NCBI GenBank assembly: GCA_022117465.1
Contig: JAHCGZ010000007.1
Span: 1-55,858 of the forward strand
From: Candidatus Nitrosopumilus limneticus
Lineage (GTDB): Archaea > Thermoproteota > Nitrososphaeria > Nitrososphaerales > Nitrosopumilaceae
Length of the DNA: 55,858 nucleotides
Reading direction: 5' to 3'
Positions 6,159 through 7,201 of the stretch are shown here, one piece after another (within the stretch, counting starts at the first letter, position 1; each line of letters opens with the position of its first letter). The notes beneath the pieces are model-generated. The model was not told where the DNA came from. It made no database searches and saw only the letters and a list, made by a program, of their open reading frames with translations. The position numbers and the translations under genes are program-made.

Positions 6159-6491
6159 ATGTCATACAATAGAGAAGATAGAGAAATGTTTGACGCAAAA
6201 TGCGGAGATTGTGGAAATGCTACGAAAGTACCATTCCAACCAAAACAAGATAGACCCGTATATTGCAGAGAATGCTTCCAAAATCACAAACCAGAGCCAC
6301 GACAAGGTGGCGGTAGATTTGGTGGAAGATCAGGTGGAAATGATAGAGGTAGATTTGTAAGACGAGATGACAGACCACGAGAAATGTTTGACGCAAAATG
6401 CGGAGATTGTGGAACTGATACTCAAGTACCATTTAGACCAAAGGAAGACAGACCTGTTTATTGCAGAGAATGCTTCCAAAGCCATAAATAA
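6159..6491 (+). CDS. Duplicated CxxC zinc-ribbon protein with RG-rich linker
   Basis: The 110-residue protein holds two near-identical zinc ribbons of about 35 residues: EMFDAKCGDCG...PVYCRECFQ near residues 9-42 and again near 75-108. The linker (about 48-72) is rich in RGG/RG repeats (GGGRFGGRSGGNDRGRF). Each ribbon has four cysteines in CxxC-x18-CxxC spacing. At DNA level 6183-6216 and 6381-6414 are identical over 34 bases, so the duplication is recent or kept alike. Zinc ribbon plus RGG linker suggests RNA or single-stranded nucleic acid binding; this is inference. Single-ribbon relatives are common in archaea of this group. Confidence 0.88.
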   Translation: MSYNREDREMFDAKCGDCGNATKVPFQPKQDRPVYCRECFQNHKPEPRQGGGRFGGRSGGNDRGRFVRRDDRPREMFDAKCGDCGTDTQVPFRPKEDRPVYCRECFQSHK

Positions 6492-6932: not shown

Positions 6933-6979
6933 TTTTAAATTTTCGTTTCTTTTATACGTGGGTATACTTTTAGAATAAT

Positions 6980-7098
6980 ACGTTTGATTCCAAAATCGCG
7001 TTAACCAAATCGGGTTAACAAAACGTGGTAAATATAGAACGGAACTCTCCATTCTATATGAGGTTGGTCGAGACTATTCATCTCACCAATCTCAATTT
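6980..7098 (+). ncRNA. Candidate structured non-coding RNA with consecutive hairpins
   Basis: A stretch richer in G and C than its surroundings lies between two genes and folds into consecutive hairpins. Element 1: CGTTT (6981-6985) pairs with AAACG (7021-7025) and encloses GATT/AATC (6986-6989 with 6994-6997) and GTTAACC/GGTTAAC (7000-7006 with 7013-7019). Element 2: ATATAGAA/TTCTATAT (7032-7039 with 7052-7059) capped by GGA/TCC. Element 3: 7060-7068 with 7085-7093 (nine pairs, one G-U) capped by GAGA/TCTC (7070-7073 with 7081-7084). A TATA-like TTTATAC at 6951-6957 lies about 27 bases before the first stem, and a U-run follows the last, so the plus strand is preferred. A minus-strand promoter near 7120 cannot be excluded. 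No match to a known RNA class was recognised. Confidence 0.5.
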
Positions 7099-7201
7099 TG
7101 ATAAATTCCTTTAAAAAAAATATAATATGAAATTTAAAATCTAGAAATTTTAAAATATTGAATTTCAAACATTTTAATCTTAAATTGTTTTAAAAAAATT
7201 A

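Follow-up and report, generated by a model that had tools for sequence, protein, structure and literature searches.

A candidate trans-acting small RNA of the genus Nitrosopumilus, carried as a short cassette at changing genomic sites

In an intergenic region of Candidatus Nitrosopumilus limneticus, within the stretch of 55,858 nucleotides that was analysed as a whole and is called the window here, three hairpins follow one another directly, and the question is whether they form a small RNA and whether such an RNA serves the gene downstream or stands alone. The original prediction, made from the letters only, was a structured RNA of about 118 nt with its own promoter and a U-run at its end. 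All the stems that it described were found in their places, by reading as well as by folding: the three-way-like first element is a three-way junction in which P1 closes over P2 and P3, the 8-pair stem is P4, which has an extra inner stem, and the 9 + 4-pair stem is P5. The features are as follows.

6934 to 7163, no strand: stretch lacking in relatives, whose gap is 36-40 bp; holds the whole RNA cassette (junctions by eye)
6934 to 6978, plus strand: promoter region, with the block of about -39 to -1 conserved across 36 loci
6950 to 6957, plus strand: TATA-like element TTTTATAC
6979 to 7099, plus strand: small structured RNA, match to covariance model R1 at 114 bits
6980 to 7026, plus strand: 5' three-way junction, P1 enclosing P2 and P3
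6980-6985/7021-7026, plus strand: P1, seen in the fold, compensatory changes present
6986-6989/6994-6997, plus strand: P2
7000-7006/7013-7019, plus strand: P3 (GTTAACC), seen in the fold, compensatory changes present
7032 to 7059 (7032-7039/7052-7059), plus strand: P4 hairpin, CUC at the apex
7041-7043/7048-7050, plus strand: P4 inner stem, GGA/UCC
7060 to 7093 (7060-7068 and 7070-7073/7081-7093), plus strand: P5 hairpin
7074-7080, plus strand: P5 loop, CU-rich across the family
7096-7099, plus strand: U-run UUUU after P5, probable 3' end

The minimum free energy of positions 6980-7100 is -38.5 kcal/mol against a mean of -19.4 for shuffled sequences (z -6.5; 0 of 200 shuffles as good), and the G + C content of the RNA (0.37) is, as had been noticed, higher than that of the upstream flank (0.22), the downstream flank (0.11) and the whole window (0.30). 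The predicted lack of a known RNA signature was borne out: no Rfam 15 family matched in the window at the gathering score, the matches of a permissive Rfam scan were all far below threshold, and a tRNA scan gave none at the RNA locus.

BLASTN matches were obtained in 17 of 61 genomes, every one of the same genus, and full copies from 15 of these 17, besides the window's own, entered the first alignment, to which genome G032 contributed two; one G024 copy is close to a contig end. The covariance model R1 was made from relatives in an alignment (A3) of 16 sequences with the P1-P5 structure, and of 95 genomes of the genus searched with it, 37 had a strong match (84-137 bits) and, besides these, G113 had a single weak one of 36 bits. 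The RNA is present in 23 of the 56 good genomes of the genus, several single-contig genomes are without it, and many of the genomes in the comparison are incomplete. Searches with R1 of samples of the order (300 genomes) and the phylum (398) found no copy outside the genus. A rescan with looser filters of 30 genomes of the genus without a strong match, G113 included, returned the 36-bit match, four of less than 20 bits and nothing else; the match in G026 (16 bits) is chance-like. The core motif also occurs in named records titled Nitrosopumilus, Nitrosopumilaceae, Thaumarchaeota or plain archaeon. Nearly every carrier has one copy, the exceptions being G032 and G092 with two each, and these paired copies, which have common flanks, may come from redundant contigs. 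A degraded-looking copy in G103 (L061:111-231; 84 bits) folds no better than its shuffles (z -0.4) and is perhaps a decaying gene. Conservation in this group, as originally predicted, is therefore true in part: sequence and structure are kept in congeners, but the distribution is patchy, no copy was found beyond the genus and the RNA is not fixed to the window's locus.

Compensatory changes in relatives had been proposed as a check of the RNA, and they were found. In A3, 96.5% of cells are paired and both partners have changed in 11 pairs, which 0 of 500 shuffles equalled; when the partner strand was slid as a control, pairing fell to 38-52%. In a larger alignment of 45 matches (44 copies and the weak relative; 40 distinct rows), 95.8% of structural cells pair and both-side changes are seen in 18 pairs and 89 cells (0 of 500 shuffles). 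Under a tree-based null similar to that of R-scape, of modest power, in which the observed substitutions are replayed at random columns on the RNA tree, three pairs are significant, all in P3, and two further pairs, in P4 and P5, are borderline; none of the non-structural pairs was above the all-pairs threshold. The pairing of P2 is beyond covariation testing because its stem and loop are almost invariant, and its sequence is clearly constrained.

A TATA-like box had been predicted about 27 bases before the first stem; the centre of TTTTATAC is about 26 nt ahead of 6980, and across copies the element lies about 26-30 nt before P1. There are two promoter flavours, which largely match two RNA subgroups, except that in G111 and G005 an RNA of the second type follows a promoter of the first. 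The promoter motif did not recur in the rest of the 1.0 Mb of DNA examined, a redundant set biased to RNA neighbourhoods. At the other end, where the U-run had been taken as the terminus, P5 is followed by an RNUUUU tail in most copies. Copy pairs in unrelated neighbourhoods align only from about -45/-36 to +120/+126, and a few pairs, whose downstream sequence is partly common, align out to +131 to +187. Promoter, RNA and terminator may thus form a self-contained transcription unit of about 165 bp, and the homologues in 37 congeneric genomes, together with the compensatory changes and the conservation of promoter and 3' end, support a putative structured RNA of about 118-120 nt with both signals of its own.

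The site of this unit is not constant. The gene for a small membrane protein and that for a thiamine-binding protein are 36-40 bp apart in most RNA-less relatives and also in many carriers whose RNA sits elsewhere; in some genomes the distance is greater or the two were not found as a pair. The window keeps, at 7164-7201, the 38 bp of ancestral type that precede the thiamine-binding-protein gene, and its RNA and promoter lie between the two genes. A sister group has the RNA between cobB and cobH, in some cases together with a divergent membrane ORF of 111 aa, and cobB and cobH overlap in several relatives that have no RNA at that site. The empty-site junctions were judged by eye at three sites. 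Comparison of flanks gave at least 10 context groups, some still mixing sites; the neighbours are unrelated and often convergent, and no downstream gene is common to the groups, which argues against cis action. This difference of address between relatives suggests a stand-alone regulatory RNA.

Several neighbours were observed in addition. The protein encoded just upstream of the window's site, at 6159-6491, has 110 aa and two treble-clef zinc fingers in tandem (PF23477). The loci L028 (G005) and L040 (G008) have identical neighbours around the RNA in opposite orientation, although these genomes are distant and their promoter types differ. The 111-aa membrane ORF, which has no Pfam match, occurs at L075:4882-5217 (minus strand) and elsewhere in the window's clade; it is divergent from the RNA, accompanies it at two different chromosomal sites and is absent at the window's copy. 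It was rejected as a partner and is treated as a hitchhiker, because only loci of the window's clade have it next to the RNA, and in G083 and G022 its relatives are encoded far away from the RNA.

On a cofH tree, most members of the window's clade carry the RNA, and outside this clade carriers are scattered among complete genomes without it. Cassette and cofH distances are correlated in the window's clade (r 0.56) and weakly elsewhere (r 0.20; 103 of 2000 permutations, with one degraded copy left out that the first test had included), and in some pairs cofH is 20% apart while the cassettes are 5-6% apart. This pattern suggests vertical descent with loss plus some transfer, as far as one marker gene, which cannot settle the matter, may indicate.

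It is possible, if doubtful, that the cassette of about 165 bp is a mobile, single-copy promoter-RNA-terminator gene moving through the genus, which perhaps arose from integrative elements or was exchanged with them, since the weak relative in G113 adjoins an integrase, and that its function is tied to this history. That relative (L063:1191-1296, the same as L253:10591-10696, both minus strand) has a similar three-hairpin layout (z -4.9), with a tyrosine recombinase (PF00589) on one side and an HNH-like gene on the other; identity to the nearest copy is 74% in its P5 and less than 50% in the remainder. A link to an integrated element is possible, and its integrase and HNH neighbours had no homologue in viral contigs. 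A different element of 110 nt occurs in G081 (L249:1501-1610) and G090 (L251:1501-1609), both on the minus strand of genomes near carriers; the two are 94% alike over about 150 bp with different upstream flanks, end in a P5-type hairpin GAGGUUGG...CCAAUCUCGCUUUU plus a U-run, have no Rfam match and fold mildly better than shuffles (z -1.9). The elements of G113 and of G081 and G090 may be divergent relatives or simply have a common 3' hairpin. Furthermore, G114 has two very stable hairpins (L250:1501-1586, plus strand; z -7.0) between convergent genes; the second of them resembles P5 and precedes a U-run, and the two may be only a terminator.

MITE-like, hairpin-ended non-autonomous elements are short palindromic units that usually multiply, and the cassette resembles them in being short, palindromic and found at various sites that are empty in relatives. 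If it were one of them, the hairpins would be recognised as DNA, and the features of an RNA gene would be incidental or serve the element. The recombinase beside the weak relative and the cassette's weak agreement with the cofH tree beyond the window's clade are in favour of this, as is ACGTAGAT, which flanks the cob-locus insertion on both sides and has a near-copy in G111; however, this repeat is seen at one insertion site only and may merely preserve two overlapping gene ends. The explanation is unlikely, as the RNA is near single copy in its carriers, no inverted ends were seen by eye, the promoter is conserved and the fold covaries down to the inner P3 stem. Moreover, collections of viral, phage and plasmid sequences gave no match, and none to a transposon or a remnant gene was found.

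A cis-acting leader, that is, a riboswitch or attenuator of the thiamine-binding-protein gene (PF01910), would be suggested by the position of the window's RNA upstream of this gene on the same strand, but it is very improbable: it is rejected because of the empty sites, most relatives having only the short upstream region, and other copies adjoin unrelated genes, while the hairpin and U-run end about 100 bp before the gene. The match to the TPP riboswitch (RF00059) scores 12.8 bits where the cut-off is 54.3, lies on the opposite strand and is not above chance, and the position of the RNA in front of the thiamine-binding-protein gene is not conserved. That the element is a chance set of hairpins, a cluster of terminators or the remnant of a gene can hardly be credited, even though AT-rich intergenic DNA has palindromes and several loci have a minus-strand frame across the region, for 1-2 nt indels break the frames and fold stability, conservation and compensatory changes speak against all three; riboswitch, terminator and gene remnant are ruled out by the comparative data.

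The element is therefore probably a new, genus-restricted, trans-acting sRNA of about 118-120 nt whose cassette of about 165 bp relocates. At the level of sequence it has what is expected of a stand-alone sRNA, namely its own promoter, a defined 3' end and no fixed neighbour, and from the private promoter, the terminator-like end and the lack of a fixed downstream gene, action in trans is inferred; the many complete genomes of the genus that do without it count against this reading. Transcription would start from the archaeal promoter and end at the P5 hairpin and U-run. The near-invariance of P2 and the junction suggests a bound partner, so that most likely a protein or ligand would read the 5' three-way junction; no near-exact antisense copy of the P2 segment was found in the genus. 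The CU-rich apices of P4 (CUCUCC) and P5 (CUCUUCA) suggest pairing with purine-rich mRNA sites and would most likely contact Shine-Dalgarno-like stretches, as judged from composition and loop conservation. In different lineages the cassette would have been re-inserted at different intergenic sites, mostly with one copy per genome, and many lineages would have lost it.

In bacterial sRNAs such as LhrC and RepG, CU-rich loops pair with Shine-Dalgarno sequences. The Nitrosopumilus RNA is like these in its CU-rich exposed apices on stable hairpins; unlike them it has an archaeal host, it has no homology to them and its target pairing is putative. Stand-alone, trans-acting sRNA candidates have been found by comparative genomics (Weinberg et al. 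2010, PMC2864571), and the RNA resembles these in being intergenic, structured and covarying, with its own promoter and terminator and no fixed downstream gene. It differs from those candidates in that it is not among the Rfam families, is confined to one archaeal genus and belongs to an address-changing 165-bp cassette. The RNA is described neither in Rfam nor in the literature found on Nitrosopumilus small RNAs, a search that took in few of the subscription journals.

Ammonia-oxidising archaea are abundant in the sea, and their regulatory RNAs seem hardly described, the literature searched having given none for this genus. Stable RNA genes do not usually change address while staying near single copy, and the cassette is a clean case of gain, movement and loss of a small RNA gene. 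In addition, the RNA is well delimited by a covariance model, boundaries and a promoter and has natural presence/absence pairs, and its role is therefore directly testable.
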